The position numbers and the translations under genes are program-made. The notes under the pieces were generated by a model. The model was given only the letters and a program-made list of their open reading frames with translations, did not search any database and was not told the origin of the DNA. A DNA stretch of 64,000 bases from Closterium sp. NIES-65 (lineage: Eukaryota > Streptophyta > Zygnematophyceae > Desmidiales > Closteriaceae). Location of the stretch: NCBI GenBank assembly GCA_948144175.1, contig CANXME010002011.1, positions 124,001 to 188,000 of the forward strand. The letters run 5' to 3'. This document shows, in pieces, positions 14,780-64,000 of this stretch; position 1 is the stretch's first letter, and every line of letters begins with the position of its first letter.

Positions 14780-17700
14780 ATGCACGACGACGCTGACGTA
14801 GGCGGCTCCGCAGATGGGCAGCCCGACGCAAAGGCCGGCACATTATCCCCGTTTGTAGGCCAGATCATGGTGCGTTTACCGGGTTAGTGTTTGCTCTCAT
14901 TAATCTCATTCAGGACTCTTCTGTGCCACCATTTCGTCGTGGTAACATTTCGCATTTCGTCATGTGTCTCTAAATTAGGGTTACTGCCGTATCCTGTGTC
15001 CTGTGCTCGCCCGCAGGTGCCTGGAGACGTAGCGGTGGATCTGAAGCAGGTCACGTCGTCCGTGCTTAGAATCGGACCCGGCCTCCGACAGGTGCGCGCT
15101 GGAATCTCTGTTGCATAGAGCGCTTTGAGTTGACTAAAAAAGGTCCGTGTGAGGTGAGCCGATTTTTTAGTCGACTCAAGAATCGGTCCAGGCCTCCGAC
15201 AGGTGCGCGCTGGACTCATTGTTGCATGAAGCGCTTCGAAGCAACAATGGTCACTCAAGTCTCACGCAGGTCCCTCTTCCCCGCTGCTTGTTGCTCTTCA
15301 CTTCGCAGTACTTGAGCACATCTCGCGCTCCCCAGCCACATGCTACCAACCAACCCACCCTCCCACCCCTACATGCTACCCGTTTTCTTGCTCTTGCCCG
15401 GCAAGCTGGAGGGTGACATGGTGGTGGGCATGCGAGCGGGGCGACTGAAGCTTGCGTCTTCCCCTGTGCCACCCGCCTACCCACTCATCTACCCGAACCC
15501 ACCCACGCACCCACCCTCCCATCTCCGTATCCTTGCCCGGTGAAGCAGGAGGGTGACATGGTGGTTGCCATGAGAGCGGGGCGACTGAAGCCCGCAGGGA
15601 AGAGGAAGCTGTGGGTGGACTGCAGTGTGAAGCGCGTGAGTGGGATGGCGTGTGCGTGTGAAGGTGTGTTAAGGTTTGTGAGGAAAGGGCCTGAGTAGTG
15701 GGGAAGAGGAAGCTATGGGTGGACTGCAGTGTCAAGCGCGTGAGTGGCATGTGCGCGTGATAGTGTGTGGAGGTGATTGAACCTTTGTGAAGGTGTGTGA
15801 GAAAAGGGCTTAAGCAGCAGGGAAGAGAAAGCTGTGGGTGGACTGCAGTGTGAAGCGCGTGAGTCGGTGTGGGAGGGTTGTTGGGGTCCAGTGGGTGAGT
15901 CGGTGAGTGGCATGTTTGAGGAATCCAGTGAGTGAGTGGCATGTGGGTGTGATTGGGGCTGCAGGCAGCGGGGAAGAGGAAGCTGTGGGGGGGATGCAGT
16001 GTGAAGCGCGTGAGTGGGACATGCATGGGAATGTGTGCGGTGTAGCAGATAAAAACATCAGAATCGCATGCATGCCGTTTTTATCTGCCTCCTTGTCTGC
16101 ACTGCATGTCAGCATCACCTCTTTCCCTCTCCCCCCCTTCCCGCCTTCCTTTCCCCAACCTTCTTTCCCCTCGCAAGCCACAAATGCAATAAATGGCCCA
16201 ACGTGCCTCTGCGCTTCCCTATGCAATGTCACACTACCCATTGTCCCTTCTCACCATCAGTACACGCCTGCAGTGGAGGAGGCAGTTATTGGCATTGTGA
16301 TTGATAAACACATGGAGGTATGCTCTCCTGGCTGTCGCCCTCAATCTTCTTATCTGGAATGGTCACTTTATCTCAGTGTCACACCCCTCAATATCACTTG
16401 TCGATACCACACCGCACCATCAGTACACGCCTGCAGTGGAGGAGGCAGTTGTTGGCATTGTGATTGATCAACACACGAAGGTACATTTGGTTTGTCAAAT
16501 GAGTAATGCCCTGCCCACCCCCATGCCCTCTGCCCACCACCAGAACCTAGACGTGGACATCAAGGGCCCAGGCCTCGCCATCCTGTCAGTAGATGTGCTT
16601 GTCTGTCAATGCGTATTGCACATGCCCCATGCATTCTACCCCACACCCCCCCCCCCCGCCTTCCACCAGAACCTGGACGTGGATATCAAGGGTCCCGGCC
16701 TCGCTATCCTGTCAGAACATGTTCCCTCGTCAGACGCAAAATGCATTCCCCCCCTCACCCCTGCCATTCCCCATGAATTCTATCCCACCCTCCTTCCCGC
16801 CTTCCCCCAGAACCTAGACGTGGACATCAAGGGCCCGGGCCTCGCCATCCTCCCAGCACTCGCGTTTGAAGGCGCCACCCGACGAAACCGACCCAACCTG
16901 CAGGTACGGTTTGACCACCACCAGGTTCGGTCCGAACAGACCTGATGATACAGTACAGATCCGGGGTTCAGGGTATTGGGGTGCTGGGAGATGGTTATCT
17001 GTTCATTGGTGTTCTTGTGAGCTGTGGTCATCCTTTTGTTGTTCTTGAGATGCTGGGATAATGCTGGAACATTGTTGCGTGTGCATGTATGTGTGCATGT
17101 CTTCACCGATGTGTGCTTGTATTGACATGTGCGTGCATGTGTATGAACATGTGCATGCCATGCATGCAGATCGGGCAGGCAGTGTACACCCGAGTGGTCA
17201 AGACCCATCGAGATTCCGACCCTGAGCTCTCGTGTGTGGACGGTGAGTGGTGGTGAGGAGCGGTGGTGAGTGGCTGTGAGGGGGACCCTGTGTGTTCATT
17301 TGTGGTGAGTGGCGGATGGTGTGAGGTGGGAGGTCCTCACGTGGCCTGCCTTCTTTGCAAATTTATCCATGTCATCCCACTCATCCTCTACCTCTTGCCC
17401 TTTGTCTCTCTCCCTACCGCCCATCCATCTCGCAGCGAGTGGCAAGGCAGCAGAGTTTGGGCCACTGGTGGGTGGTCACCTCTTTGACTGCTCCACTGCC
17501 CTTGCTCGCCTGTGAGCCTTTCCTGCCATCCATGCATCCATGCGTATGCGTCCATGCATCCATGCATCCATGCCATCCATGCCAACCATGTCATCCATGC
17601 GTTCAAGCATCCATGCAACCATGTGTCCATGCGTCCATGCACTCATGCTCTCCGAACCAAGCACACATCTCTCCATGCATCATATTCCAGTTGTCCCCAA

Positions 17701-18063
17701 TTTGTTCCCATTTGTGTTTGTGGGTTATTCTGTTCCCAGCCTCTTGGCAACACCAACAGCCCCTGTATTGAAGGCACTTGATGCTGCTGGCTTGGCCTTT
17801 GAAATTGCTGTGGGCCTCAATGGAAGAGTATGGGTGAGTTGCGTGACCTTTGGCACTCTCATTGTCGTTGCAGTTGGGGCTGAGTATGAATGACAACGGC
17901 TTGTTTTGATTGTTTCGGTTGTGCTGTGCTGGTGTGCTTTCAGGTGAAGGGGGACACAATAAAGAACACAATTCTTGTTGCCAATGCAGCTCAAAATTCC
18001 GAGTTCCTTTCTGCTGTGCAGCAGCGAGCGATGGTGAAGGAATTAGTCAGGCTGTCACTATGA
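14780..18063 (+). CDS. RRP40: Exosome cap subunit Rrp40 (EXOSC3), nine exons
   Basis: RNA-binding cap subunit of the nuclear and cytoplasmic RNA exosome, which feeds RNA to the degradation core and is needed for 5.8S rRNA 3'-end maturation. Exons: 14780-14869, 15017-15091, 15549-15635, 16261-16317, 16811-16903, 17170-17242, 17436-17511, 17740-17833, 17944-18063. Together they give 765 nt and 254 aa, close to plant and yeast Rrp40. Evidence: VPGDVAVDL and RIGPGLRQ in the N-terminal domain, VDIKGPGLAIL followed by AFEGATRRNRPNLQ in the S1 domain, and the Rrp4/Rrp40 KH signature GLNGRVW near residue 213. All introns are GT-AG. The start ATG opens the only exon that splices in frame to VPGDV. Odd: exons 2, 3, 4 and 5 each have extra partial or complete copies in the introns. 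Exon 4 has a full second copy (16424-16480), so two isoforms are possible. Confidence 0.9.
15068..16010 (+). repeat. Echoes of RRP40 exons 2 and 3 within the introns
   Basis: The 3' end of exon 2 with its donor (from 15068) is repeated from 15179 at about 85% identity over 65 bp. The first 42 nt of exon 3 occur earlier at 15409-15450. The last 39 nt of exon 3 plus the donor (15597-15635) recur at 15701-15739, about 15820-15858 and 15971-16009. Each copy keeps the exon edge and GTGAGT. The copies lack the rest of the exon, so they look like local duplication products and not normal alternative exons. Confidence 0.85.
16261..16903 (+). repeat. Duplicated RRP40 exons 4 and 5
   Basis: Exon 4 exists twice (16261-16317 and 16424-16480). 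Both are 57 nt, phase 0, with AG and GT borders; they encode YTPAVEEAVIGIVIDKHME and a version differing in four residues. Exon 5 (16811-16903) is preceded by two copies of its first about 36-45 nt (from 16544 and from 16680), each behind an acceptor-like cag but without a matching donor or the AFEGATRRNRP half. Confidence 0.88.
17520..17670. repeat. CCATGCAT-rich microsatellite in RRP40 intron 7
   Basis: Irregular array of ccatgcat, ccatgc and tccatg units just after the exon 7 donor. It is open on both strands by chance. Not a gene. Confidence 0.75.
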
Positions 18064-18086
18064 CCATAACAATGCTTCTACTTTTA

Positions 18087-18842: not shown

Positions 18843-18871
18843 TTATGCTGTGGTGTAAAATATATCTGGTG

Positions 18872-19202: not shown

Positions 19203-19229
19203 CTACCCCCCCTCCTAAGGAGGTCCTCC

Positions 19230-22193
19230 TTACGAGAGTGCGTGGACGTCTTTGAAGTTTCGGCTGCGCAGATATTCGGTGAGGACAGGGTGGTTTTCAA
19301 TTCTGTCCAGGGGAACCCAGTTGTCCTCAGTGGGTGTACGGTCTTTCCAGCGGAGCAGGAACTCGACTTTTCGAGCTCCTCGAGGGTCGCGAACTCTGTG
19401 GCTCAAGATTTTGTCGGGGGTGATGATGGGTTCGGTTGGCGGCCGTGCCATGCTGGATGGTCGATGTCGTGGGAGTTGGCTGGTGGATGGTACGTAAGGG
19501 CGAAGCAGGCTGACGTGGAACGAGGGGCTGACGTACCAGTCAGCAGGGAGGAGGAGGTGCGCGGTGACGGGTGTGATCATGTGGCTAATTCGAAACGGCC
19601 CACAGTATCGAGGGCGGAGTTTGGGAGTGATGGGCAGGCGGAGGTTTTGAGTGTCGAGTAAAACGAGGTCGTCGGGCTGATAAGTGACGGGTCTGCGGTG
19701 GCGATCGGCGTTGCGTTTAGCGATGATATTTGATTTTTTAATTGCTTCTGCCGCCCTGGTCCGTGTTGCTTGCAAAATCTCGGCGAACTGTTGTGCGCGT
19801 GGAACGGGATTGTTGGGGTTTGGGGTCATGGGTACTATTGGGTCCTGTCCGTAGTTTAAGTAGAATGGTGACTGCTGGGTCGTGGCAGATGGCGCGTTGT
19901 TGTATGCGAACTCGATGAGTGGCAGCTGCTGCTCCCACGTGTTTGGATCGTCGCACGTGGCTCGAATCAGCTGCTCCATGGTCTGGTTTGTCCGTTCTGT
20001 CTGTCCGTCGGTTTCGGGGTGATAGGATGAACTGAATTGAAGTCGCGTGCCGAACTGCTGCCACAGGTTCCGCCAGAAATTACTGGTAAACTTCGTATCC
20101 CTGTCGCTGATGATCGACGATGGTATCCCGTGCAGTCGAACGACGGTGGTGATGAAGAGTCGGGCTGTTTCCTCGGCTGTGATTGATTTCCTGCATGCTG
20201 CAAAATGTGCCATTTTCGTCAGTCGATCGACGACGACCAGGATCGCGTCATTCCCACTCGCCCGAGCTGGTAACCGCGTGACGAAGTCCATCGTCACCTG
20301 CTGCCAAGCACGCTCTGGAGGCGGGATGGGTTGTAATTGTCCCGCCGGTCGCTTCCTGCTTGACTTCATGAGCTGGCAAGTGGGACACGATGCCACGTGT
20401 CGTTGCACGTCGGTCAACATTTTTGGCCAGTAGTAGTACCGTTGCAGCTGCTGCCGTGTTTTTTCTACTCCAAAATGTCCCGAGGTAACTCCGTCGTGTG
20501 CCTCCTGTAACAGTAGTTCCCGTAATAGTGTGAACCCTGGTACCCAGATGCGGTCGGTTCCAGCTTTTACGTAATAGACTCCCTTGGCTGCTGCAAATTG
20601 CTGTGAATTTCCTCCTGTGAAGAATGGGTCTCTTTGATATCCGTGGGTAAATAGTCCTGTCAGTAGCGGGCTGGTCTGGGCGAGTAGTATCGCATGGATC
20701 TGGGCAGTGGGGCGGGTCAGTGCGTCAGCGATGCTCGAGGCTCCTTTTTTATATGTGACCGTATAGTGAAAATTCGACTCGAGGAAATCGAGCCACCGAA
20801 TCTGTCGTGGGTTGAGGTGGGGCTGTGCGCGGAGGTACTGTAGGGATCGATGGTCTGTCCGTACTGTCACGTCTGCGCCGGTCAAGTAGCAGCGCCAAAC
20901 TTTGAAGGCATGCACGATCGCGACCATTTCGCGGTCGTGTATCGGGTAATTTCGCTCAGGTGGATGTAGCTTGCGTGATTCGTAGGCGATGGGTTGGAGG
21001 CCGTTGCCGAAGTCCTGTAACAGTACTGCCCCGATGGCGATGTCACTTGCGTCTGTAACCACTTCGAAGGGGCGGTGTGGGTCAGCGATGCGTAGGACGG
21101 GTGGTGAACAGAGAACCTCTTTCAGGGCAGAGAAGGCAGCATGCTCTTTCTCCCCCCACGTAAAAAGGACCCCCTTACGCAGTAAATCAGTGAGCGGGTC
21201 TGTTAAGCGCGCCATGTCGGGGACGAACCGACGAACGTAATTAACAAACCCTAAAAAACTCTGTAGTTCCGTGATGTTCGTCGGGGGATGCCACGCTTTT
21301 ACCGTATCCAGCTTCTTGGGGTCAATCTCAACCCCAGCCTCCGAAATGACGTGACCTAAAAACTCTAGCCTGTCCCGAAAAAACTCGCACTTGGAGCCCT
21401 TGGTGAGTAACCGATGTGCCTCTAAAATTTTAAAAACTGCTTCGAGATCTACTAAGTGCTGCTGCTGGTCCCGACTGTAAACGAGGATGTCGTCGAGGTA
21501 AACTATCACACATTTATCTAAAAGTGGCCTAAACGCCTCGTTCATGGTCATCTGAAATGTTGCAGGCACGTTGGTCAGCCCGAAAGGCATCACCGTGTAC
21601 TCGAATGACCCGTACCTAGTCCTACATGCTGTCTTGGCGCAGTCTGATGGTTCGACCCGAATTTGATGGTAACCTCCCCGTAAGTCGATTTTCGAAAATA
21701 CTCGTGCGGTTCGCAGCTGGTCGATCAGTTCGTCGGCGCGGGGGATGGGGTATCGCGATTTGACGGTTACCCTGTTAAGCGCTCGGTATTCGATGCACAT
21801 GCGAAACCCTCCGTCTTTTTTCGGTGTGAACAGTATTGGTGCGGCGAACGGTGACGAGCTCGGTCGGATAAACTGCTTCTCTAACAGGTAATCTAACTGC
21901 TTCCTTAGCTCGTCGAGCTCGGGCTGTGTCAGTCGAAATTGGTGCTGTACAGTTGGCTGTGCCCCCGGTTCTAACTCGATCCTATGGTCATGCGCCCGCT
22001 GAGGTGGCAGCCCTTGCGGTAAGTCATCCGGAAAGATACCCGGGAACCGTTTCAGTAGTGCCTGTAGTTCGGGCGGTACGGCTGCCAACAGCTTCTGCAA
22101 ATCACTCGGCTGCTCCTCTTTTTCAACTAATGCGATATCCACTGCGTACACGTCAGCTCCAGCAGCGACAGCCCGTTTCATCGTGATGGCGTT
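19230..22193 (-). pseudogene. Gypsy pol, 3' part: RT, RNase H, integrase, chromodomain
   Basis: One open frame on the minus strand, from the copia C junction to the stop at 19230. In order: RT with the catalytic IVYLDDILVYS (near 21520-21480) and FSKIDLRGGYHQIRV upstream; RNase H (VTDASDIAIGAVLL, near 21060); integrase zinc-binding part (HFGVEKT, CPTCQLMKS, near 20370-20480) and DDE core (MDFVTRLP, SDRDTKF, HPETDGQTERTN, near 20300-19960); C-terminal chromodomain-like segment (FLLRWKDRTPTEDNWVPL, near 19330). No internal stop is seen. The frame is intact apart from the copia insertion, and removing one TSD copy joins it in phase to 29676-30313. Confidence 0.9.
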
Positions 22194-22322
22194 TGTCAGA
22201 TTTATATGACATATTTGCTGTAGGCTATAGTGGGGTAGCACATATGGGGTACAGGGTTTCTAGGGTTGTATTTGTACCCAATCTTTCCTTAGTCATTTCA
22301 TTCCTGTTTTCCTTGCTTCACA
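22194..22322 (+). repeat. 5' LTR of copia C
   Basis: 129 bp, TGTCAG...TTCACA, identical by eye to 29547-29675. Confidence 0.92.
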
Positions 22323-22429: not shown

Positions 22430-23340
22430 CGCGGCCCCGCTGTCCCTCAGACGCGGCCCCGCCACCTCTCCTGATCGCGGCCCCGCCGCCTGCTTGACGC
22501 GGCCCAGCCGCCTCCCCTGACGCGGCCCCGCCGCCTCCCCTGACGCGGCCCCGCCGCCTCCCCTGACGCGGCCCCGCCGCCTCCCCTGACGCGGCCCTGC
22601 CGCCTCCCCTGACGCGGCTCCGCCGCCTCCCCTGACGCGGTCCCGCCTCTACTGCCGAGGCCCCGCCGCCGCCTCTGACGGCCCCGCCGCTGCACCCTAC
22701 GGCCCGCTGCTGCATCCTGCCGGCCCGCCGCCTCACCTGACGGCCCCGCCGCTGCTCCTGCCGGCCCGCCGCTGCTCCTGCCGGCCCGCCGCTGCACCTG
22801 CCGGCTCGCCGCTGCACCCAGCGGCCCGCCGCCTCTGACGGCCTCGCCGCTGCACCTGCCGGCCCGCCGCTGCACCCTACGGCCCGCCGCTGCACCCTAC
22901 GGCCCGCCGCCTGCACCTGCCGGCCCGCCGCTACACCTGCCGGCCCGCCTCTGCACCTGCCGGCCCGCCGCTGCACCTGCCGGCCCGCCGCTGCACCTGC
23001 CGGCCCGCCTCTGCACCTGCCGGCCCGCCGCTGCACCTGCCGGCCCGCCACTGCACCGGTCGACCCGCCGCTGCACCTGACGGCCCCGCCCCTGCATCTC
23101 CCGGCCGAGCCGCCCCAGCAGCCGAACCGCCCGGGAGCCGAGCCACCCAACGCCGAGCCGCCCGGGACCCGAGCCGCCCTGCCGCCGAGCCGCCCGGGAG
23201 CCGAGCCGCCCTGCACCCGAGCCGCCCAGCCGCCGAGCCGCCCGGGAGCCGAGCCGCCCTGCGCCCGAGCCGCCCAGCCGCCGAGCCGCCCGGGAACCGA
23301 GCCGCTGTGCACCCGAGCCGCCTGGTCGCTGAGCCGCCTT
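22430..23340. repeat. GC-rich tandem-repeat leader of copia C
   Basis: Three successive repeat blocks lie between PBS and gag. From 22450 to 22660 the unit is like GACGCGGCCCCGCCGCCTCCC. From 22680 to 23090 the unit is like GCACCTGCCGGCCCGCCGCT. From 23100 to 23330 the unit is like GAGCCGCCCGGGAGCCGAGCC. The blocks are not those of A or B. Confidence 0.85.
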
Positions 23341-23437
23341 TCTGCATAGCTGCACGACCTGCCCTGCCTGGTGAGCACAGTCCCACTGACACTGCGAGCC
23401 CTTTCCCTACTGCTTGCACTGCGTCGCTGTCGTCGCC

Positions 23438-26400
23438 ATGGCTACCCCTAGTGTCCTAGCTTTTGACGCTGAGGGTCGCGCCATTGATTTTGAGGTCTGG
23501 TTAGACGACCTGCAGCTGTTCTTACAGTGCGACAGGGCTGACGACCTTTCTCTCTTTGACCTCACCTCTGGCGCCTCTCCTGCTCCTCCTGCTGATGCTG
23601 ATCCCGCTTTCCGCTCTAAGTGGGCCACCCGCGATGCTGCTGCACGTCTTGCTATGCGTCGCCACCTCCCTACCTCTGAGCGTGCGCACTTTAGTCAGTA
23701 CAAGAGTGCTCAGACCTTGTACGACGCTGTAGTTGCGCGCTACTCCTCCCCTGCCACTGCTGCACTGAGCCGTCTCATGCTTCCCTACCTCTTTCCTGAC
23801 CTCTCTGCCTTTCCCACTGTCGCTGACCTCATTACGCACCTCCGCACTAGTGACACTCGCTACCGCGCCGCCCTTCCTGCTGAGTTCTGCGCTAAGAACC
23901 CCCCCCCCATGTACATCGCTCTCTACTACGTAGTCGTGCGCCTCCCTGACTCCCTTCGCGTCGTCAGGGACCACTTTCTCGCAGTCTGTCCCACCACCCT
24001 CACCGTCGACCTCCTCGAGAAGGCCCTCCTCGCAGCGGAGAAGAGCATAGTCGCTGTAGGTGCTTCTCGTGGTGACCCTCGCACCCCCATCTTTGAGGGG
24101 TGCTCTCCTTCCCCCTTGCTGCCCTCTGTTGCCTCTGCTGCTGCTGCCGACCTGCTTGGTCTTGAGTCGGTCGGCGCGGCGTCTGCCCCTAGTGGGAGAC
24201 GTCGCTCCAGCAAGGGCAAGGGGGGCAAGGGCGCGGGTGGAGCTGGAGGGGGCGGTGGCGGTGGCGGCGGTGGCGGCGGAGGGAGTGGGGGTGGCGGCGG
24301 GACTAGTGGTGGAGGTGGTGGTGGCAGCAGTGGCGGAGACGGTGGTGGTGGTGCCAGCGGTGGTGGTGGAGGCAGCGGCGGTGGTGGAGGCGGCGGAGGT
24401 GGAGGCGGTGGAGGCGGCAGCGGAGGAGGCGGTGGTGGTGGAGGAGGTGGGGCTGGTCGAGGTGGTACCCAGCAGCGTAGCGGCGGTGGTGGTGGCCAGC
24501 GCTCGCAGCGGCAGCAGCAGCAGCGCTCGCGAGACATCCCTCCGCCTCAGCAACTTCGTGAGTGGTACGCTGGGCGTCAGAGGGGTGGGGGTACTGGTCC
24601 CTGCACCTACGTTCTTCGTTCCGGCGACCGCGCGGGTGAGCAGTGTGGGGGTGCCCACGCCACCCAGCGCTGCTTTGGCCGCCTGACGGACGCCTGGCGT
24701 CAGCAGTTCCCTGGGGCTAGTGAGATCCCTCGCTGGGATGAGCTTCTCAGGGCTGGTGTAGCGATCTTTGATCTTGATTTTGATGCTATCCTTGCTGCTA
24801 TGTATGTTGTGGATTATAGTGAGGAGAATGAGGGTTACCGTTGTTTCCAGCCCGACCCGGGCATTGGTACTGCTGCGCTAGGTGCTTGTGAGGCTGCTGC
24901 TCTAGGTGCCAGTACGTCTGTGCTCTCAGGTACTGGTGAGACTGCGCTCTCAGGTACTGCGTCGTCCTCGTCCTCCCTCACTTTCACACTTGACTCCGGA
25001 GCTTCTCGCTCCTTCTTTCGAGACCGCACTACCCTTACGCCGCTCGGCCGGCCGGTTGCGGTCTCCCTTGCTGACCCCTCTGGGGGTCCTGTCCTGTCTC
25101 ACTTCTCCACTGTCCTCCCGTGTCCGGCTGCCCCTTCGGGCACCCTGTCGGGTCTGTACCTTCCCTCGTTCTCTACGAACTTGGTGAGTGGAGCGGACCT
25201 GCAGGATGTAGGGGTTCACCAGTTCACTCCTGCGAGTCAGCGGGTGACCCACTGCACGGAGGCACGCACAGGCCGACACCTGGCCACGTTCTCGCGTCGG
25301 CCGGGGTCGAGTCTCTACACCCTAACCGTTGAGTCTCCTCCTGTCCCTGCGTCTAGTCAGGTGGCTGCGTCGGGTCAGGTGCTTGCTGCTTCGTCCCGGT
25401 CAGGTCCTGAGTCTGCCCCCTCTTCTTGTCGCCTCCTGTCTCACGAGACTCTCCTGTGGCACCACCGTCTTGGCCACCCCTCCTTGCCCCGTCTTCGGAG
25501 CATGGCTTCCCGTGTCCTTGTCTCTGGTCTTCCCCAGTCTCTCCCTCCTCTCCCCTCCGGGCCAGGACCTTCCTGTGTCCCCTGTGTCGAGGGTCGCCTC
25601 CGGGCTACTCCTCACTCCTCCCTCTTTCCCCCGACAGAGGCTCCCCTGCAGACGCTTCACATGGATGTGTGGGGCCCAGCCCCCGTCCGTGGGCAGGGTT
25701 ACGAGCGCTACTTCCTGTTGGTGGTTGACGACTACTCGCGTTACACCACAGTCCTCCCCTTGCGCAGCAAGGGTGCGGTCACTGAGGTGCTGATCGACTG
25801 GATCCGCGAGGCTCGTCTCCAGCTCAGGCAGAGCTTCGGCTCGGACTTTCCTGTTCTGCGTCTGCACTCTGACAGAGGCGGAGAGTTCTCTTCTCGCCTT
25901 CTGCGGGACTACTGTCGTGCACGGGGGATCCGCCAGACCTTCACGCTTCCGGACTCACCACAGCAAAATGGGATTGCTGAGCGCCGCATTGGTATGGTCA
26001 TGGATGTCGCTCGTACGTCCATGATGCATGCGGCTGCCCCCCATTTTCTGTGGCCGTTTGCGGTGAGGTACGCGGCGCATCAGCTCAACCTTCACCCCCG
26101 GGTCTCTCGGCCTGCGATGTCCCCAGCCTTGCTGTGGACGGGGAAGGTTGGCGATGCGTCTGTGTTCCGTGTCTGGGGATCTCGGGCGTTTGTCCGCGAC
26201 TTGTCTGCGGACAAGCTGTCCCCTTGTGCTGCTCCCTGTGTCTTCCTTGGCTTCCCCACTGACGCCCCAGGGTGGCAGTTTTACCACCCCTCCTCTCGTC
26301 GTGTTCTGTCCTCCCAGGACGTCACGTTCGACGAGTCAGTCCCCTTCTACCGTCTCTTCCCCTACCGCACTCCTTCCCTCCCCCCTCCCCCGGACTTCCT

Positions 26401-29675: not shown

Positions 29676-30313
29676 TCGTTGACCTGGACCGTCGAAGACT
29701 CGGGTGGCTGCCAGCGAGGTAGGACGACCCAGTTACCACTACTTCGCACTGTGCAGCTACCCGTCGTCCAATCAATTCGTGGGTTATACCGTCGCAGCCA
29801 ATCGCATCCCAATAAAATGTCGTGCCCATCCAGTGTCGTTGCGAGCATTTCTTGTGTAAACCCGAAGCTCCCCCCGCAGCGGACTTTTACTCTCTCCACC
29901 TTTTCCCGTATAGCCCGTGGCGTGCCGTCGACTAAGCGTGCATCTATCTCAGGTAAGCATCGGTTAAGTGGTAACTGTAATTTCCGTGCAGTTGCGGTAT
30001 TAACTAAGCTGTGACTTGCTCCTCCGTCAATAAAAATCTTCACTGCTGCTCCCTGTATTTTCCCGTAGATTAGTACCGGGCAATCCGTCGTTGTACCCTC
30101 CTTATTCATCCGAGCCCGATCGATGGCATGAATCGGTACTGTGACTCGGTGAGGGTCGGTGTGGTTGGGCGAGCAGGCAGTCTCGTCAATAGTTGGCCCA
30201 ACTTCTATTGACTGCTGGCGTTTCCCTGCCTCTGAGACTCCCTCCCCTCCTCTGCTCCTCGGCGCCTCAGCTCCTCTGGGCATTCGCTCTTGCGATGGCC
30301 CGGCGTGTTGCAA
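29676..30313 (-). pseudogene. Gypsy pol, 5' part: aspartic protease
   Basis: Upstream half of the same pol frame, cut by copia C. It contains the retropepsin active site written IDGGASHSLV (DGG in place of DSG or DTG) near 30030-30000 and the C-terminal HDILLGCDWLRRYN near 29800. It overlaps the end of gag by about 108 nt in the -1 frame, which fits ribosomal -1 frameshifting for pol expression. Confidence 0.85.
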
Positions 30314-31383: not shown

Positions 31384-31841
31384 GGCGGGGGTGTCGGGCA
31401 AGCTCAGCGAGAGCCTCGGTCGTGGTCGTGCGTGCTTGCGAGAGAGCACTACGAGCGGCGGTGCTGTATCGCTGAGAGACGTCTACCCCCCCCCCAAAAA
31501 ATTGAGATAGTGGGGAAGCGAAGGTGTGGATGCGGTCCGAGATGGGATCGTAGGCTCTGAATACCAAGTGTTATGAGTGCAATTGAGTGAACGAACGAGA
31601 ATTGCACTATCGAAGCAAGAGTACAATGAGCGAAGGCATGAGCGAAGAATATATAGCGAAACTACAGTGGTAACGGTAATGGTCGCGCGACGAGCCTGGG
31701 ACTGAGGTTGGGAAAGTGTCGAAGCGTAGGCCCGGAGCGCGGGTTACCAGCCGACCCGTGAGGTCGGGGTGCGATGTGCGAAATTGGCGGGATGATGAAT
31801 GATGCGATGGTCGCGAGTGGTAACGGTGCTGACTGAGGTGC

Positions 31842-43352: not shown

Positions 43353-43419
<67 letters not shown>

Positions 43420-45887: not shown

Positions 45888-46658
45888 CTGTAGCAGTGCC
45901 ATAAAATCAGCGAGGGTGGCTGGAGGGCATGTGGTGCAGTGCGGTGCGGTGTGGTGTGGTACGGTGTGGTGCGCAGCGTTTGACATGCAGGAGGGCATGG
46001 CTTCAAGCGGCATGGCTGGGCTGAGAAGGGCGGGCAGAAGGTGGTCCCGAGATGCTAGAGCGGATGCAGCAGCAGTAGCTGTAGCTGTAGCAGTAGCTGT
46101 ACCAATGGAAGGGAACCCAAGAGAACTCATTCTCCCGAATCAATGACCCCCCATGCGGAAGTCCCGGGTCCTCAGGCTGAAGCAGTGTCATTTGTATGCC
46201 AGGAGGAGGGTTGAATGAACGTTTTTTTGTATGTTTCAGGGTCTGGATAAAGTGCAGTCAAATGGGACTTGCCACGTGTGCATGCAACAACTACCAGTAT
46301 GCAAAACATATCCTATCCTACGAATAGTCATCACACATGTTCAACGGCTACCCACTCCACTACTGTAGATAATTTGGTACGTGCCAGTACCAGATTAAAA
46401 CCGCTTCCGGTAGTTTTCTGCGGCTCCTCGAAGCTGACTAATCCAACTTGCTGACTTTTGAGTCGACTCAAAAACTGCTTACGGTAGCTTCTATGGCTCC
46501 TCGAAGCCAATCCAACTTGGCACTATGTGCCAGCTCCCCTTCACCTTTCCCCCTTCTCCTTCCTCCACTCCCCATCCCTCCTGTTTGTTTACCAGGTCCC
46601 TCCTGCGTGTCCTGTGAGCCGAGCTGGCTGGCTTCCACTCCCCGTCCCCCCTCCTGCT
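45888..46658. other. Convergent region between globin and transporter genes
   Basis: Both genes end here. It contains the trailing echo of globin exon 4 (45970-46078). It also holds a duplicated segment of about 50 bp (46398-46450 and 46470-46518) with the perfect 18-bp palindrome TTTTGAGTCGACTCAAAA at 46456-46473 between the copies. No further gene. Confidence 0.7.
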
Positions 46659-54300: not shown

Positions 54301-55095
54301 TTGTCTCTCTCATACTCACTCCACTTACTCTCATACTCACTCCCACTCCCTCATACTCTCTCCGCGCTTCCCTCACTTGGCAGGTGACAGTGACGGTGGG
54401 AGTGGATGGCGTGGTGCATGCAGGCGTGCGCAAGCGGCACAACATTCGAGGCAGCAAGGTGAGGCTGAGAGGGGGCGCTACAGGGGGGTAGGTGGAAAGG
54501 CAAGGCACACCAAGAATTGGGAGGAGCGAGTGATGAAGGTGGAAGGGTAAGGGGTGGCATGGGGGAGACAAGCACTCATGGGTGTTTGGGGAGTGGATGG
54601 CGTGGTGCATGCAGGCGTGCGCAAGAGACACAGCATTCGTGGGTAGCAAGGTGAGGGAAATAGTGACACAATCACCAGATGAGGCAAGGACCATGACTAC
54701 ACCGGTGACTTCCCCCACTGACGTGCTGGCTCCTGACTCACTCGTTTACCCATGTTCAATCCCACCGCTTTCCCCATGCGCAGTTCTCCCTGCCCATGCC
54801 CAAGGGAGGCAGGGCAGGAGCAGCCAAGGACCCTGTCTTGAGGGAAGACCAGCTGCTTCCCAAAAACGGACGACGGCGATTCACCAAGAAGAAGGGCAAG
54901 CCCACTGACGTGCTGGCACCTGATTTCGTGACGTTCTTTGATGAGGTGGGCGAGGGGAAGGCGGGGGGAGGCGGCGCGGTGAACAGCCGAGCCGTGGTGG
55001 CTACGATTGCGGCAGGCGGGGACACGAGGAGAATGGCTGTTGCTCTGGGGTTGAAGGTTAACCCCAACAGGGTGAAGCGGGGAGGGAACAAGTGA
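51395..55095 (+). CDS. NOB1: NOB1 endonuclease for 18S rRNA 3'-end maturation
   Basis: Exons 51395-51857, 52145-53456, 53735-53828, 54384-54458 and 54784-55095 give 751 aa. Cuts 20S pre-rRNA at site D in the late 40S precursor. PIN domain: CLVVDANVLISG with Asp96, VREVLAEVRDR, then across the intron FARATGDVGTLSAVDSKLLALA with the further acidic residues. Zinc ribbon with Cys597, 600, 612 and 615 (CSACSAVTPDMTRVFCPDCGN). The tail is the family's KRHNIRGSK, FSLPMPKGG, DVLAPDFV and LKVNPNRVKRGGNK. Longer than animal NOB1 (about 410 aa) because exon 2 codes a large Gly/Glu-rich disordered insert (about residues 220-560). All junction phases agree. Exon 4 occurs four times; only 54384-54458 is complete. 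Confidence 0.92.
54095..54741 (+). repeat. Echoes of NOB1 exons 4 and 5
   Basis: The acceptor and first half of exon 4 (VTVTVGVDGVVHAGV) occur at 54095 and 54240 before the full exon at 54384; the period is 144-145 bp and the intervening CTCATACTCACTCC text is copied too. A fourth copy without acceptor, but with the exon end and donor, lies at 54591-54650. A 23-nt piece of exon 5 (PTDVLAPD, 54901-54923) recurs upstream at 54713-54735. A short echo of the exon 3 end lies at about 53865-53878. Confidence 0.88.
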
Positions 55096-56024
55096 GGGAT
55101 ACTTTAGCGGGTGCATTCCTGTAGTGGCTTGATGCTGACTTGTCTCAGGCTGCTTGCGGTGGTGCTGGGGGTCGTGGTGGTGGCGGCGGTGGTGGCCGCT
55201 TTTGAGGTGCCTCGAAAGTGCGTTTCTGTAGTGGCTTGATGCTGACTAGTCTCTGGCTGCTTGCGGTGGTGCTGGTGGTCGTGGCAGTGGCGGCGGTGGT
55301 GGCCGGGGGAGGGGGGTACAGTATGAGGAAGAGGAGTGCTGGGACTGAACTGAATGACGTGGCTTTTGAGGACTTTTGAGTCGACTCGGTACCATACGAG
55401 GATGGCTGGTGCACTGGGCCTGGACCGGGGCTGAACAATAGTGGGGGAAGTGAATAGAGTGTGCTTTTGGCAGATTTGTAGGGGCACGGTTTAGGGTTGA
55501 GGATTGATGGGGATGTCTGGATTCAAGAAACGAAGAGCATGGATTGTGAAGGAAGTGGATTGTGGGTAGGGCCATTATCATTTTGATCTGCATTTCTTTG
55601 TTGTTTTCTATCAATATTCTGGGGGTACCGTTACCCTAAATCAAACCTCCATGTCAAGGAAACGGAGGTACCGGTATGCTTACTGACCAAGTATACATTA
55701 TTCATCAGCCCACTTCTGCCACTCACACAACCAAGCGTCCAACGTTCCCCATCTTGATTCACTACAGCACTTCGCATGTGTAGTTCCTATAACGGGGACG
55801 AGCAGCAGCAGCAGGTGGAGCAGCAGGAGCGTCAGGAGAAGCACCAGGAGGAGGGGGAGAGCAGGCGGAGGGTCAGGAGAAGCACCAGGAGGAGAGGAGG
55901 AGAAGACTGCTGCAACCCACTCGATTCCCATTTGGTCAGCTACCGTGTTATCGACTACACACACACTCAAGCCGGGCCATACAAGTGTAACACGCCCTGG
56001 TTATTAGAGTAAGCACGGGCTCGA
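55096..56024. other. Convergent region between NOB1 and FAS1 gene 1
   Basis: Holds a tandem duplication of about 108 bp (55116-55222 and 55224-55305, GGTGGTGCTGG-rich) just after the NOB1 stop. A palindrome GAGTCGACTC lies at 55378-55387. There is a purine-rich AGCAGGAG stretch (55800-55900). No gene is supported; 3' UTRs of both neighbours are expected. Confidence 0.6.
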
Positions 56025-57738
56025 TTAGACGGGGGGCGGCGGGGACGCCATCCCGCCCGTGGGGGGCGGGGGAGAAGCGATAGTAGCGGGGGGAGGCGAC
56101 GCGGTAACAGCGGGGGGAGGCGACGGTGTAACTACAGGAGGCGGGGGGGAGGCGGTAACCGACGTGGGCGGAGGCGGAGAGCTGACCACAGGAGGCGGAA
56201 GGCTGGGGGAAGCGGGAGGGGTCGGAGGCGGGGACTTGGGCGGGGATTTGGGGGAAGGCGGGGGCGGGGACGCGTCGCCGCCGTCGTCACCGTCGTTGCC
56301 GCCGTCGTTGCCGCCGCCATTCGCGGGCGGGGCGCGGTAGACGTCATCGGGGATGAGGAGCGAGTCGACGAGGTGCAGTTGGAACGACGTGGTGTTGGCG
56401 AGGTTGGGTGCGACCATCGTTGACTTGGAGCGACCGCTGCCCGACCGAAACACCACCGTGAAAAACGCGCTCTCGTCCGACTTGAACACGGGCCTCTTCG
56501 CGAGCGTCGCGAACTGTTCGCACGGGATTGGCGAGGGGGGAATAGTTGGAACGCATGGGAATATTAGGCATGAGAACAGGTAGAAAGGTGGGGGAGGTGT
56601 ATGCGCCTCAGACTCTTACTTACGGACAGAGAGAATGCGGCACACTCTAGCTCATGGACAGAAGAGAATGCGGCACACTCTAGCCCATGGACAAAAGAGA
56701 ATGCGGCACACTCTAGCTCATGGACAAAAGAGAATGCGGCACACTCTAGCTCATCGGCAAAAGAGAATGCGGCACACTCTAGCTCATCCATTCCTATTCG
56801 GCATGTGTCCCGCTACAAGCATACCTTTCTATTAGCCGCGAACTCGACGAGCTTCGTGTAGTCGAACTTGTTTCCGAGAATCATATGGTATCGGAGCGTG
56901 GCGCGCGCTAGCAAAGGGTTATTGATGTACGGCGACGCGGGCGGCAGCGACTGCAGCGCGTCGGGGGACGGCACGAGGAACGTCGCGCCGCTGGTGCCGG
57001 CCTTGACTGTCGCCTCAAGGAGCGTCGCCAGCAGACCTGGAAGATGCACGGAAGGAATGAGAAAGCGTCAGCGCAGTCAGCGAAATCTGCCAGTGCCGGC
57101 CTTGACGATTGACTCTGGGAATTTCTGCAGCAGACTTGATGGCGGAATGGAAGGCGAGGAAGAGTAAACACTCACTTCTGGCACCATGAACAAAGTAACA
57201 CGCAATTCTGAGGCGCCTTGAACAAAGTAAACACTCAAATTCTGAGGCGCCTGAAAACAAGTTGATGTTTACCTGCTTTTTGAAAGAACTCTACGAACTG
57301 CTTCTGCTTGCTCAGCGACATCACCAGCGTGAACACCTTCTGCGCGTCAGCGAGGTTCACCATAGCGGGTCCGCCGTCCCCGGCTTCGGCCTTCTTCCTC
57401 TTCGGAATGAGCCGTTTAATCAGACCCTTCTTTTTTTCCGGCGCTGGTGAGCTTGTCTTGGGTGGCGAGGAGCTCTTTGGCGGGGATGGGGACTTCGGGG
57501 GCGACTTTTTAGGCGGTGATTTATCGCTCGAAGTCGCCAGCGGAGTCGCGGTGGATCCTGCTGCATACGACTTCGATAGAAGCTCTCTACCACTCCTCTC
57601 GCTGCTTGCTTCCAGCTGTGTGGGTAGAGTCGACGCGGCCATGGAATGCCTACCCAGCGCGCATGGCGCGGCGCATAGAGCTACAACGGCCACAAGGAGA
57701 AGGCACGCCCGGAAGGTTAGGCGCGGAAAACGCGCCAT
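56025..57738 (-). CDS. FAS1-domain protein 1 with proline-rich tail
   Basis: Exons 57738-57273, 57036-56825 and 56513-56025 give 388 aa. Signal peptide (RACLLLVAVVALCAAPCALG, residues 9-28), a basic KSPPK region, then one fasciclin domain: DAQKVFTLVMSLSKQKQFVEFF, ATFLVPSPDALQSLPP (H1-like), LRYHMILG with the conserved Tyr-His, and LHLVDSLLIPDDVY (H2-like). The tail of about 110 residues is SPPPP and SPPKSPP, typical of hydroxyproline-glycosylated wall proteins. No C-terminal hydrophobic segment is seen, so no GPI anchor is predicted. Secreted adhesion or wall protein of the FLA type. Exon 2's start is echoed in intron 1 (57092-57137). Confidence 0.82.
56626..56790. repeat. 33-bp tandem repeat in intron 2 of FAS1 gene 1
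   Basis: Five copies of a 33-bp unit containing GAATGCGGCACACTCTAG and CTCATGGACAAAA. It is open in several frames because 33 is a multiple of three. Intronic by position (between exons ending at 56825 and starting at 56513). Confidence 0.88.
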
Positions 57739-59416
57739 GGGCCGTGGATGGTGTTAGAGCAAAGTGCTGTTATATGCGAAGGACTTTATCGGGGTTCCGG
57801 ACTAGCAGTGAAGGTCGTTGCTGTACGGTTCTTATAAGTGTAGCGGAGGCCCGGTAGTTACCGTGGATGCACTTACTACTGTCCTACCTAAGTGGCGTGA
57901 TGTATCTCATTCAGAGGGCTTCTTACTCGAGCGAAGGAATTTGTGGTGGCAAATGGTGTAAATACTAGAAGGGAGTAGCTGGAGGCTCGATACCCTCGTG
58001 GTGTCCGACCAGCCCGCGCGCCAGTTACGAAAGGCAGGCAGGCACTTCCTATCGTGATGTGCAGCGTTCAGGTTTTTCTAAGGCCTCAGTGTCGGCTATC
58101 TGCGCCTCGATTGCTTGCGGAATTTGTTTTTTTACCGATGATGGCTGGTGGAAAAAATATTCCTAGAAGCTAGGTGCACTGAAACGGCTAGTGCTGTGAA
58201 TGTGAGCTCTCTTGGAAGTGGGGCGATACGTCTGCTTGGTTGGGAAGTTGGAAGGAGAAGCGATGAGAAACCAAGTAGCCACGATGCACTCAGCAGATTT
58301 GCGGGACTGATGGAACGCCCGAGTCGCAATATTTCCAATGTGAGAATCGAGCCGCCACATTGGGCGGAAACCCACGGAAAGGTAGATTGAGAGGCTCCGC
58401 ATCTCACGCAACCAATATGGGGTGCGGAAGGTGATGTGGGTTCTCCCTGTCGGTGGCCTCGTGGCACAAAAACGAATTTCCTGTGGTGTCGGCAGGGGAA
58501 TTGTCGGAAATTCTGACAGCCGTCAGGCAATATCGAAGCCATCTAATGTACGTGATAACAAGCCCCTTCTTACGTTCAACATGTTTATTGAAACCATTTA
58601 TGCTCAGTACCTGTGTAATGCTAACCCCTCTTGTCTTTATTCAATTGCTTCATGGTCACTTTTAGCATAAATAAGTTCTATTGAGACCTGTAACATTCTG
58701 TAGAGTCTCAATATAATCGCAAGAACAGTGTTGCATGATCCAGCTCACGTTATACTGAGTGTGCAAATTGTAGTGGTTAATAGTTGGCAGCTGAACCATA
58801 AGGTGTTTGAATGAGCACTGCTGTACACACCGGTGTTCGTGGAAATGCTGTCAAGATCGGCCACATCACACCTTGAAAAGCACGCTGCACGTGTGTGACA
58901 TGAAGGGTTTGATACAGTAGTTCGCTCAGGAACGTTTGAATGAGCACTGCGGTACACTCCTGCGAAAAACGAATTCAAGCTTTTCTACATTACCACAACC
59001 ACCACACATCTGGATAGTGGGCGGACCGCTTTGAATCCACCTTGCCGTGTCTCTTTTAGAGACAAGAGAGTAGTGGTATGTGCTGCTGGCGTTTCTTGCT
59101 TCATGTTTGTGCTAGATGAAATCTTTAATGCCCGTATACTTGATGTACATTCACAACTATACGACACATTGAATCTATCCTAGTTTACGTAAGAGCATGC
59201 CATTCTGGCCTGCCAGCCGTTGGCATTCTTCTAAAGAGTATACGTCGAACGTCTCGACAATGGGGTTGTGGGATGGGGAGGGGATGGGGAGGGGAAGAGG
59301 GAGGGGTTGTGGCTGGAGTGGCCTCAGTAGCGGAAGGGAAGGTGGGGTCAGGGGAGGAAGGCGAAGAGACAGGAAGAGGAGAGATGGGGGAGGGGGGAGT
59401 GAGGGGGGGAGGAGAG
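57739..59416. other. Region upstream of FAS1 gene 1 and downstream of FAS1 gene 2
   Basis: About 1.7 kb without a supported gene. A 136-codon minus-strand frame (58132-58542) lacks any family feature. A pair of about 30-bp direct repeats (GTTTGAATGAGCACTG) lies at 58805 and 58932. The stretch next to 57738 should hold the FAS1 gene 1 promoter. Confidence 0.5.
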
Positions 59417-61892
59417 TCAGGGCGGCGATGGTGTTGCGGATGAGGTTGACTCGTTGGTTGGAGGGGGAGGGGAGGGAGAGGGCGGGGTTGTGGCTTGAGT
59501 GGATTCAATAGGAGCAGATGGAGAGGAGGAGTCAGGGGTGGGAGGCGAAGAGACAGGAGGAGGAGGGGAAGATTCAGGGGGGGGTGGGGAAGGGCTAGGG
59601 GGAGGAGGTGAGGGGTTGACGGTAGGAGGTGACGAGACAGTGGGAGGAGGCGAGGGGTTGAGGGGAGGTGAAGGAACGGAAGGAGAGGGAACTGAAGGAG
59701 GAGGAGAGAGACTGCCAGCACCGGTAGAGTCGCCACCACTGCTGCTCCCGCCTGCATCATTTCCGGTGCCACCACCACCTCCGCTCCCACTACCGCCGCT
59801 CCCAGTGCCACCACTTGCATCACTCCCACCGCTCCCTCCGGTGTCATCACTCCCGGTGCCATCACTCCCACCGGCAGCATCACCGCCATCGGGCATGGAG
59901 TGCAGGATGGCGTCGGGCACGAGGAGCGAGTCCACGAGGTGCACCTGGAAACACACATAAAGAGGAGAGTACAGGTGGAGAGGATTTTTAGTCGACTCAA
60001 AAACCACTTCTGTCACTCCCATCAGCAGCAGAACCACCATCGGGCACGGAGTGCAGGATGGCATCTGGCACGAGCTGCGAGTCCACAAGGTGCACCTGGA
60101 AAAAGGCACAAGTGAGAAATTGGAAACGGGAATGGAGACAGGTGATCAGTCGGGCATCGAATGAAAACGACAACGGGCTTGACACGTGGTGTGCAACGAG
60201 GAAGAAAGCAAAACTCAGCGCGGCGAGCCACCAAGGTACACGTCTGGAAACAATCCGTCTTGGCGGGGCTGTGAGTGCGTAAAGTGGACTCGAGCTTCAA
60301 GAGGATTCTGAGCCAGACTCAAGCACACACCTGGAAAAACTCCGTTTTGGCGAGGTTGGGCGCGAGTAGAGTGGATTTAGAGCGGCCGCTGCCTGAGCGG
60401 AAGACGACCGTGAAGAATGCGCTCTCATCCGACTTGAACATTGACTCCTTGGCGAGCGTGGGGAACTGCGCAAAGGGAGGAGTGGGAGAGGGACATGCAG
60501 TGGTGCATGTGAGGTGCGGAAATTGGCGGAAGAAGGCGCTCTCATCCGACTTGAACATTGACTCCTTGGCGAGCGTGCGGAACTGGTTGGGAGAGGGGGG
60601 CACGCACATGGGTTGCATGTGGGGACGGAGGGAGTCGGTGTTGAGAAAAGATGGGAGGGACGGAAGACGACAGTGAAGAAGGTGCTCTCGGCCGAATTGC
60701 ACCAACACACCCACAGCCCGCCCTATACACTCACGCCGGTGTCCGCGGGTCGCTCGACGAGCGCCGTGTAGTCCATCTGTTTCCCCAAAATCATGTGGTA
60801 CCGCAGCGTTGTTCGCGCGAGCGACGGGTTATTGAAATACGGCGACGCGGGCGGCAGCGACTGCAGCGCGTCGGGGGACGGCACGAGGAACGTCGCGCCG
60901 GCGCCGTTCCCCTTCGTGATCGACTCGAGCAGCACGGAGAGAAGTCCCGCGTTGCTGATATACTTCACGAACTGCTGCTGCTTGCTCAGGCCTTGCACGA
61001 GGTTAAACACCTTCTGCGCCTCCGCGAGATTGACCATGACCTTGGGCTTGGGAACGGTGGAGGAGGAGGTTGAAGTGGTGTTCTTCTTCTTGCCGAACAG
61101 CTTCTCTCGGAGCTTCCCCTTTTTCTTCGTTTCGGTGGTGGCCGGCGATTTGGACGGAGATTTCGACGGCGATTTTGACGGTGATTCGGACGGAGATTTT
61201 GACGGCGATTTTGACGGTGTTTTTGGAGGCGAGACTGACGGTGTCGGAGACGGCGTTTGCTCCTTCGCTGGTGGGTTTGTCGTTGGCGAGTTTTTCTTAG
61301 TCGGCGATGGGCTTGCTTTCGGTGGCGACGGGCTTTTCTTAGGCGGCGAAACATTTTGTTTCGCCGGGGATTTCGCAGGCGACTTTACTGGCGTTTTTGT
61401 CGTCGTTGGCGATGATGGATGCTTTGTTGACGGCAAGGTGGTTTTCTTTGTCGGAGTTTTCGGGGTCTTGGGCAGAGACTTGGTCGACGGCGGCAGCGGT
61501 TTCGGCTTCGTCAATTTCGTTACAGATTTTTTCGAGGATTGGCTAGTTTGCGCCGTAGTCGACTTCACTTGCTTCGTCGCAGCCGAATTCGCTGATTTCG
61601 CAGAAGATTTCGCCGACGTCGCAGCCTTCTTTCCGGCGGATTTCACTGACGACGACGACGATGAGGACTTCGCTGCGACTGTTTTCGCCCCTGCGACTGC
61701 CTCACCCGCAGATTCTCCCCTTACTAGCCGCGGTTTCTTTGCTGGAGATGCGGCTGGTCGGGTGGCAGATTTTGCCGTGGTCTTAGTTGAAGGCTTTGTC
61801 GCTTTACTGAGTGCAGGAGCTGGCGTGCAGATAGCGAGAAATATAACTATGCAGAGAACGGCGGCCAGGACCACCGCCCTTCGGCCCGCCAT
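59417..61892 (-). CDS. FAS1-domain protein 2 with Lys/Ser/Pro-rich spacer and proline-rich tail
   Basis: Exons 61892-60735, 60465-60331 and 59944-59417 give 606 aa. Signal peptide (VVLAAVLCIVIFLAICTPAPALS), a spacer of about 230 residues of SPSK, SPAK and KTP repeats, then the fasciclin domain: EAQKVFNLVQGLSKQQQFVKYI, ATFLVPSPDALQSLPP, LRYHMILGKQMDY, KSDESAFFTVVFRSGSGRSKS, and VHLVDSLLVPDAILHSMPDGG. The tail is Gly/Ser and then SPPPP. It is a close paralogue of the gene at 56025-57738 (shared blocks in every exon). Secreted wall or matrix protein by family. Exon 2 has two extra partial copies upstream in intron 1 and exon 3 has one in intron 2. Confidence 0.82.
60005..60700 (-). repeat. Echoes of FAS1 gene 2 exons 2 and 3
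   Basis: 60582 to about 60531 repeats the acceptor and first half of exon 2 (TLAKESMFKSDESAFF). About 60690-60655 repeats its middle (STFFTVVFR). 60095 to about 60008 repeats the acceptor and start of exon 3 (VHLVDSQLVPDAILHSVPDGG) and breaks off at the palindrome at 59985-60003. Confidence 0.86.
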
Positions 61893-63384: not shown

Positions 63385-64000
63385 TCACTGCGCAGGTGGT
63401 GCTGGCACTGTGGTGTTGGGATCTGAACTGGACAGAGGAGAAGTTGCTGTTGCCACGGCTGGGATTTGCTTATCTGCTGCCACCGCTGGTGGCGGTGGAG
63501 ATGCTATGGGAGGGGCTGACGGTGTGGATGGTGGGGTAGGGGTTGCTGACGGGGATGGCTGGGGAGGTCTTGGAGGAGGGTTTGGAGGAGGGTTTGGACG
63601 AGAGGATATTGTAGGGGATGTTGTTGGAGGGGCGAAGTAGACCGAGTCTGGGATGAGCAGCGAGTCCAGTACATGCACCTGGTGGAGTGGGGTGCGGTGC
63701 GGTGGGGTGGGGTGAGGTGGGGTGGAATGGAGCAGGGTGAGGTGGGGGGTTTGGTGGGTTGGGATCAGGTGGGGCGGGGTGGAGTGGGGTGGGGTGCAGT
63801 AGAGGGTGGGACTGGCCGGATGTGCATGGAATACGGCAGCAAGGACGAGTGGGGAGTGCTAGACCTGCATGCACTCACGTGTGCCGGATATCCCTCAAAC
63901 CCATATCCCACACCTGCATGCTCTCGTCCGTGTATGTGTTGGGCATAATGATGGTGGCACGGTAAGGCACTAGACCTGCATGCTCTCACGTGTGTCCGAG
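63385..64000 (-). CDS. FAS1-domain protein 3, 3' part only
   Basis: The last exon 63678-63385 follows an acceptor and encodes VHVLDSLLIPDSVYFAPP, the same H2 segment that opens the last exon of gene 2, then a Pro-rich tail of about 80 residues to a stop. A further exon may lie at about 63952-63889 (ATIIMPNTYTDESMQVWDM), ending at a GTGAGT donor, but I cannot prove the frame. The remainder is beyond the window. It is the third minus-strand member of the tandem cluster. A donor-side fragment is duplicated (63859-63885 and 63970-64000), as in the other genes. Confidence 0.6.

Follow-up and report, generated by a model that had tools for sequence, protein, structure and literature searches.

In a 64,000-nucleotide stretch of the genome of the zygnematophycean alga Closterium sp. 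NIES-65 (assembly GCA_948144175.1, contig CANXME010002011.1, positions 124,001 to 188,000, referred to as the window), partial copies of exons recur in the introns and flanks that adjoin the exon they resemble. These partial copies, called echoes here, mostly keep a single exon border, lie on the side of the exon where a tandem duplication straddling that border would leave them, and are present in 10/10 genes examined, six in the window and four CCT genes outside it. They are not simple neutral debris: their differences from the exon are mostly synonymous, their splice sites are near real strength, and most of the flanking introns are unalignable. We tentatively favour, at somewhat less than an even chance, the explanation that echoes represent latent exon ends, still open to collapse or conversion with the true exon, and that selection therefore acts against defective ones.

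Gene models and the search for echoes

The source assembly comprises 874 Mb in 2400 contigs. Six window genes were modelled by splice sites and reading frame, giving 29 exons (RRP40, 9; globin, 4; amino-acid transporter, 5; NOB1, 5; FAS1 gene 1, 3; FAS1 gene 2, 3), and all six models are open and in frame with zero internal stops. Pfam domains were matched for RRP40, the transporter, NOB1 and fasciclin, with FAS1 gene 2 falling short of the cut-off for fasciclin. The spliced globin model (residues 55-194) gave a single continuous match to PDB globins, the closest being plant non-symbiotic haemoglobins, and the spliced RRP40 model (residues 48-247) a single continuous match to PDB RRP40; these unbroken matches support the choice of which copy was taken as the true exon. 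The four CCT genes were modelled in part (19 exons), with borders set by Pfam matches and splice-site scores. Each exon was then searched against the sequence on either side of it, 1.5 kb per side where the sequence allowed, with all modelled exons of the gene masked.

Echo geometry

The 48 exons yielded 89 echo matches, of which 41 hold the acceptor border only, 24 the donor border only and two both borders, the other 22 being internal. The acceptor-only echoes lie upstream of their exon in 41/41 cases and the donor-only echoes downstream in 24/24 (10 genes). A single CCT exon with a recent array supplies 11 of the 41 acceptor-only echoes; when ten of them are set aside, 31/31 are upstream. 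A stricter alignment retained 26 acceptor and 23 donor echoes, with 0/49 breaking the geometry, and the 33 echo matches of the window alone comprise 11/11 acceptor-only echoes upstream, 13/13 donor-only echoes downstream, two with both borders and seven internal. At least one border echo was found for 28/48 exons (14/29 in the window, 14/19 in the CCT genes). Exactly this geometry is expected when a tandem duplication spans a splice border and one whole exon remains: a single border is kept because the duplication ends once in the exon and once in the intron, and is filtered by the need for one intact exon.

A sequence-only reading of the window had already noticed exon pieces in adjacent introns or flanks of RRP40, globin, the transporter, NOB1 and FAS1 genes 1 and 2, and the self-comparison finds repeats at those places. 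Its remark that one border is usually kept with its AG or GT agrees with the counts above, AG being kept in 35/41 acceptor echoes (25/31 minus ten array rows) and GT in 21/24 donor echoes. Copy numbers that it had counted by eye mostly stood, namely five for RRP40 exon 3 (the true exon and four echoes), four for NOB1 exon 4 (the true exon and three) and five for globin exon 3 (the true exon, three echoes by BLAST and one by the direct repeat at 44.9/45.1 kb). The figure of four for globin exon 4 is about right, the true exon having four further matches of which two are parts of one copy. The R3H/SUZ gene, named there as the exception, is one long open frame, so its lack of echoes is expected.

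That the cause is wide and not tied to one gene, as the same reading held, is supported by all ten genes and by a search in the MCM family (contigs C637, C1919, C2359 and C21), in which 7/7 clear one-sided overlapping pairs stand in the predicted order. These MCM rows were read by eye, one haplotype each, and are independent of the formation of the idea; pairs whose ends do not tell the side were omitted (e.g. 11-47, 75-140 and 169-210 on C21), and 183-223/184-224 on C21 is a whole-exon pair. Echoes also stand out against shuffled sequence, since no near-diagonal match was seen in two dinucleotide shuffles each of 22 stretches (20 assembly pieces of 10 kb, six of them on the window's contig, and two window pieces). 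Non-array clusters numbered 25 in 200 kb of assembly pieces not picked for genes versus 27 in 30 kb of CCT genes, which gives no clean density ratio because several of the 25 look transposon-derived.

The offsets between echo and exon span 87-556 bp, with 26/54 at 120-205 bp. The smallest offset falls at 120-172 bp in 21/27 non-array clusters of the CCT genes and in 5/15 of the window; given this spread and the low share in the window, a nucleosome origin is not claimed. Flank pairs rose above the 95% level of different-gene pairs in 22/54 cases, so the duplicated units did include intron, and the remainder are indistinguishable from unrelated introns. A reading of the echoes as simple target duplications that overlap introns at random was set aside; in the block test of it only non-overlapping rows were used, since overlapping ranges let copies align to themselves. 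A simulation of random duplications leads one to expect ~0.87 intron-only duplications per one-border echo, and no non-array intron-only duplicate pairs were seen in the repeat listing of the six window genes.

Paralogues and haplotypes

The region of NOB1 and FAS1 gene 2 (window 51951-58721) is duplicated on the same contig, at C1713:78570-92715, in pieces at 91-98% identity, as found among the 38 of 1384 candidates that were scored. With C1713:80400-82000 taken as the second copy, the NOB1 paralogues show 24 differences over 1588 aligned sites. The second copy is without exactly one of the two upstream 144-bp exon 4 echo units (46 bp exonic, 98 bp intronic), and one upstream echo as well as the downstream echo are common to both. 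The presence or absence of one whole 144-bp unit indicates that echoes appear or disappear as whole units.

Most CCT genes are present as a near-identical pair, one copy on each of two contigs, the exceptions being one single, one triple and one pair differing in structure, and a piece of RRP40 of 1.7 kb was found again on contig C1815 at ~100%. Both haplotypes therefore seem to be present in the assembly. The RRP40 echoes were found again on C1815 and are thus not a peculiarity of a single contig. Two haplotype pairs differ at 12/2670 and 26/4096 aligned sites; a third shows 188/4446 raw differences, all but 4 of them in one misaligned minisatellite stretch. Size differences of ~140-150 bp between CCT haplotypes are, in two aligned pairs, mostly due to minisatellite copy number and not to echoes.

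Coding constraint and splice sites

The set of 55 one-border echoes, which leaves out ten further rows of the CCT array, differs from the exons at 316 of 1053 synonymous sites and 179 of 3342 nonsynonymous sites, a ratio of nonsynonymous to synonymous differences per site (pN/pS) of 0.18. Under strict alignment, 49 echoes show 243 differences at 875 synonymous and 101 at 2806 nonsynonymous sites, with a pN/pS of 0.13 (bootstrap 0.095-0.17). If the true exon alone were constrained, a neutral pN/pS of ~0.5 or higher would be expected, and the binomial p of the strict set against this expectation is 1e-33 with sites treated as independent. Gene by gene, the strict pN/pS is 0.05-0.22 in 8/9 genes and 0.41 in FAS1 gene 1, FAS1 gene 2 having no strict match.

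The splice sites of echoes resemble those in use. Acceptor scores have a median of 10.2 (mean 8.2) in 31 echoes, 10.9 (10.8) in 40 true exons and -4.9 at random intronic AG. In the same way, donor scores have a median of 9.3 (mean 7.9) in 24 echoes, 8.7 (8.5) at 41 true sites and 0.6 at random GT. The scoring matrix was trained on 23 window introns and also used for the CCT borders, which favours true-site values and not those of echoes.

Palindromes at echo junctions

Some echo copies are separated by a minute palindrome. Its core, TTTGAGNNNNCTCAAA, has 38,285 exact copies in the genome versus 31 of the reversed pattern, and a longer form, TTTTTGAGNNNNCTCAAAAA, has 2,838 copies versus 0. Of 50 longer sites among the matches listed, four centres account for 45 (ACGT 13, GCGC 13, AATT 10, TCGA 9). 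Palindrome sites were found between direct repeats in 14/15 cases as against 360/1929 random positions in the same loci. The 15 sites, taken from non-redundant fetched DNA with one mismatch allowed, amount to ~12 independent places, since three share one repeat in locus L038 and two in locus L040, the latter locus (3 sites) having been chosen for holding the pattern. An earlier, lenient score passed 15/15 sites but 224/400 controls as well, and the strict test was used instead. In clean cases the repeats measure 25-64 bp and the inserts 21-67 bp.

An empty site was seen in one case, where a haplotype on C1657 carries a 30-bp repeat and a 23-bp palindrome that are both absent from C1133; the insert is located in an echo and not in the true exon. 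Judged by this architecture, the palindromes look like an insertion class that generates long target duplications, and we infer from the adjoining host genes that they are located in nuclear DNA. Such insertions explain some echoes (RRP40 exon 2, the globin exon 3 copies and FAS1 gene 1 exon 3) but not most. The palindrome-bearing places of the window are given in Table 1.

Explanations weighed

The favoured explanation may be laid out in steps. The data show short tandem duplications, often of 120-200 bp, that run from within an exon into the intron next to it; survivors keep one intact exon, which leaves acceptor-side echoes upstream and donor-side echoes downstream. They also show that the intron parts of most pairs have diverged almost unrecognisably, the exon part differing mainly at synonymous sites and retaining a strong splice site. 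The rest is proposed. An echo would normally remain unspliced into messenger RNA, yet it would be a recombination partner of an exon 100-300 bp away, and collapse of the direct repeats or conversion may make a working exon out of its border-side part, the echo's splice site included. Broken echoes would yield broken exons at the rate of collapse, and in a very large population even so low a rate could amount to effective purifying selection. Some duplications resemble target duplications from the insertion of a tiny palindrome and most are without an insert; both may have a common origin in the repair of staggered breaks. The broader proposal, that there is a genome-wide class of selected latent exon ends, part of it owed to minute palindromic insertions of a new class, with target duplications of tens of bp, is possible but doubtful.

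Several observations weigh against the latent exon ends. Collapse itself was not directly seen. The model predicts a stronger constraint near the border, and this is seen weakly, with a pN/pS of 0.11 within 80 nt of the splice border versus 0.24 farther (strict alignment), a modest gradient that is based on 24 nonsynonymous differences beyond 80 nt. It also predicts patchy differences, which are not clearly seen, synonymous differences being clustered at p<0.05 in 4/26 echoes with a combined p of 0.10. Under the looser alignment, nonsynonymous differences exceed synonymous ones in FAS1 gene 1 (13 to 10) and FAS1 gene 2 (7 to 4), and of 35 window echo matches, internal low-complexity ones included, a frameshift is present in 11 and an in-frame stop in 5. 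Changes assigned to the echo are distributed over codon positions as 40:32:54 in the window, which by itself is thus nearer to neutral, and as 34:24:80 over 10 genes; such lineage-assigned changes are unreliable because echoes of one exon differ in age. In the NOB1 paralogues 4/5 exon differences are at first or second codon positions, so that this pair gives constraint no support. Moreover, a few recent units contribute a good part of the mean similarity between flanks at 40-80 bp, and the rarity of intron-only duplications is unexplained by the model beyond a faster decay of intron-intron pairs.

Some of these points suit neutral debris, one of the two outcomes that the sequence-only reading had suggested, in which tandem duplications at splice borders decay freely after birth. 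The geometry, the clean 144-bp difference between the NOB1 paralogues, the mild third-position bias in the window, the occasional frameshifts and stops and the FAS1 genes without clear constraint would all be expected of it. It is nevertheless very unlikely, being already contradicted by the low pN/pS and by splice-site strength that is retained though most flanks have lost similarity. Conversion alone without selection was rejected by steady-state reasoning, as it cannot bring pN/pS below ~0.5. An origin by capture from a divergent haplotype, in which one side of a recent duplication came from, or was swapped with, a functional homologue that had diverged greatly, would account jointly for the synonymous differences, the strong splice sites and the lost intron similarity, and several echoes appear by eye identical in one part and diverged elsewhere, although the test of patchiness is not significant. 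Haplotypes differ little, however, a DNA search gave no further long RRP40 homologue, the CCT genes are mostly near-identical pairs, and divergence between copies is very uneven, up to 17/35 third positions. Such capture would also require many events per gene, and we consider it unlikely.

Direct use of echoes as alternative exon ends in some transcripts would likewise explain both the coding constraint and the strong splice sites. Yet acceptor-side echoes are without a donor and donor-side echoes without an acceptor, with no splice motif visible at the inner ends, and positions that would allow mosaic joining exist in 28/55, several at the border and mostly weak, whereas several of the echoes under strongest constraint have none. 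An extended isoform would keep the frame in the 18/55 echoes with offsets divisible by three, which is the chance level. This account is improbable, and two forms of it were rejected as general accounts: mosaic splicing through an AG|GT inside the repeats, since that motif is absent in 27/55 and elsewhere mostly weak or at the border, and extended isoforms, on the count of offsets. The sequence-only reading had also suggested a reservoir of alternative or mutually exclusive exons. Duplication of whole exons into mutually exclusive or cassette exons would suit RRP40 exon 4 and transporter exon 3, which keep both borders, and is possible for those two exons; as only 2/89 echoes do so and the offsets keep frame no more than by chance, it is highly improbable as an account of the whole.

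If echoes are latent exon ends, copies of non-functional look would be conserved for what they become and not for a present role. Low pN/pS and intact splice sites would then be no proof of current use, and gene predictors may annotate echoes as exons. The system would offer a natural setting in which to watch intron growth and exon turnover, and possibly a new insertion element with very long target duplications.

Comparison with known systems

In tandem exon duplication, as with mutually exclusive exons, whole exons are copied with both borders. The echoes share with it the tandem repetition of exon sequence within the gene and differ in that both borders are the rare case. In introner elements, insertions add intron sequence, whereas the palindromes described here are too short for introns and have no splice sites of their own.

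In intron gain by tandem genomic duplication, as set out in part of PMC3443670, a duplicated exon stretch carrying AGGT creates a new intron. The likeness to that account lies in exon copies set beside an intron, the extra copy being hidden by splicing; unlike it, an existing intron is lengthened here, and a usable AG|GT is often missing. In parallel, the relevant section of PMC8355091 describes how fill-in at staggered breaks followed by end joining duplicates the overhang, and mentions overhangs from 43 bp and of 50 bp. Such fill-in is a plausible origin of echoes, which differ from what that section describes in the length of their offsets and in copies that look constrained. Short palindromic repeats are known from the organelles of Volvox carteri, and a passage of PMC2670323 calls the nuclear copies inert. 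Compared with that passage, the Closterium palindromes are likewise tiny and dispersed; unlike the repeats described there, they have a common GAG-NNNN-CTC core and are placed between direct repeats of 24-90 bp, one of them haplotype-variable. Among the matches listed in the literature search, none dealt with conserved partial echoes of exons or with nuclear palindromes that have long target duplications.

Features of the window

Table 1. Echoes and palindromic inserts in the window (positions count from its first nucleotide; offsets in bp relative to the true exon)
Feature	Position	Strand	Remarks
RRP40 exon 2 echo, donor side with intron flank	15180-15235	+	56-bp direct repeat of 15069-15124, flanking a 55-bp foldback insert
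Foldback insert between RRP40 exon 2 copies	15125-15179	.	two core-like palindromes
RRP40 exon 3 echo, acceptor side, upstream	15409-15451	+	offset -140; AG lost (TG)
RRP40 exon 3, three donor-side echoes, downstream	15701-16006	+	offsets 104, 224, 371
RRP40 exon 4 second copy, both borders	16424-16480	+	
RRP40 exon 5, two acceptor-side echoes, upstream	16544-16718	+	offsets -267, -141
Globin exon 2 echo, donor side, downstream	44165-44232	+	hairpin 44084-44129 between exon and echo
Globin exon 3 echoes, downstream	44658-45099	+	two donor-side and one internal by BLAST; one added by direct repeat
Palindromic insert between globin exon 3 echo copies	45000-45035	.	core-like centre (GAGGCGTCTC)
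Globin exon 4 acceptor-side echoes, upstream	45191-45620	+	first with 15-bp repeat expansion
Globin exon 4 echo, 3' of true last exon	45962-46086	+	
Core palindrome TTTTGAGTCGACTCAAAA, 3' of transporter gene	46456-46473	.	sole site of 15 failing the strict direct-repeat test
Transporter exon 5 echo, acceptor side	46885-46977	-	98% identity over 93 bp; intron flank unalignable
Transporter exon 4 echo, donor side	47077-47229	-	20 substitutions, 14 third-position; 4-bp frameshift
Transporter exon 3 second copy, both borders	48478-48511	-	126-bp unit
NOB1 exon 4 outer echo, acceptor side, upstream	54096-54141	+	offset -288
NOB1 exon 4 inner echo, upstream	54240-54285	+	offset -144
NOB1 exon 4 echo, donor side, downstream	54589-54650	+	
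NOB1 3' region, 88-bp direct repeat	55111-55305	.	around a 19-bp core-like insert (55199-55217)
FAS1 gene 2 exon 2 echo, acceptor side, upstream	57093-57135	-	74% identity; AG lost
Core palindrome where FAS1 gene 1 exon 3 copies join	59985-60002	.	
FAS1 gene 1 exon 3 echo, acceptor side, upstream	60013-60095	-	
FAS1 gene 1 exon 2 echo, donor side, downstream	60244-60288	-	78% identity; GT lost
FAS1 gene 1 exon 2 echo, acceptor side, upstream	60529-60582	-	

Simple repeats accompany some of these genes. In RRP40 intron 6 (window 17242-17430), the second haplotype (L030) is longer by 312 bp, about eight units of 39 bp, and a globin exon 4 echo holds a perfect 15-bp repeat in 14.5 copies (45229-45445). 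The second NOB1 copy has 12 additional bases adjoining a GAGTCGACTC core, beside window position 55384.

Other parts of the window are occupied by mobile and satellite-like sequence. Copia-type (RVT_2) retrotransposon frames and those of a chromodomain-bearing Ty3 type lie at 5957-11461 (-), 23390-29332 (+) and 33596-37519 (+), and at 19233-22259 (-) and 30208-31482 (-), respectively. Two pairs of direct repeats at ~99% (31842-32289/37501-37948 and 18871-19145/31568-31842) resemble the long terminal repeats (LTRs) of nested insertions, and the 1-kb piece 28000-29000 has at least 40 matches in the assembly at ≥99%. Large GC-rich, satellite-like arrays are found at 4052-4826, 5128-5617, 12219-12851, 13192-14102 and 22430-23338, with a 181-bp unit at two of these places. 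Finally, in two other loci of the assembly (L019 5663-6036; L024 4429-4805 and 5907-6282), direct repeats of ~142 bp enclose ~92 bp with TGGTATCAGAGC or a close variant, and these elements resemble miniature LTR elements with a transfer RNA primer site.

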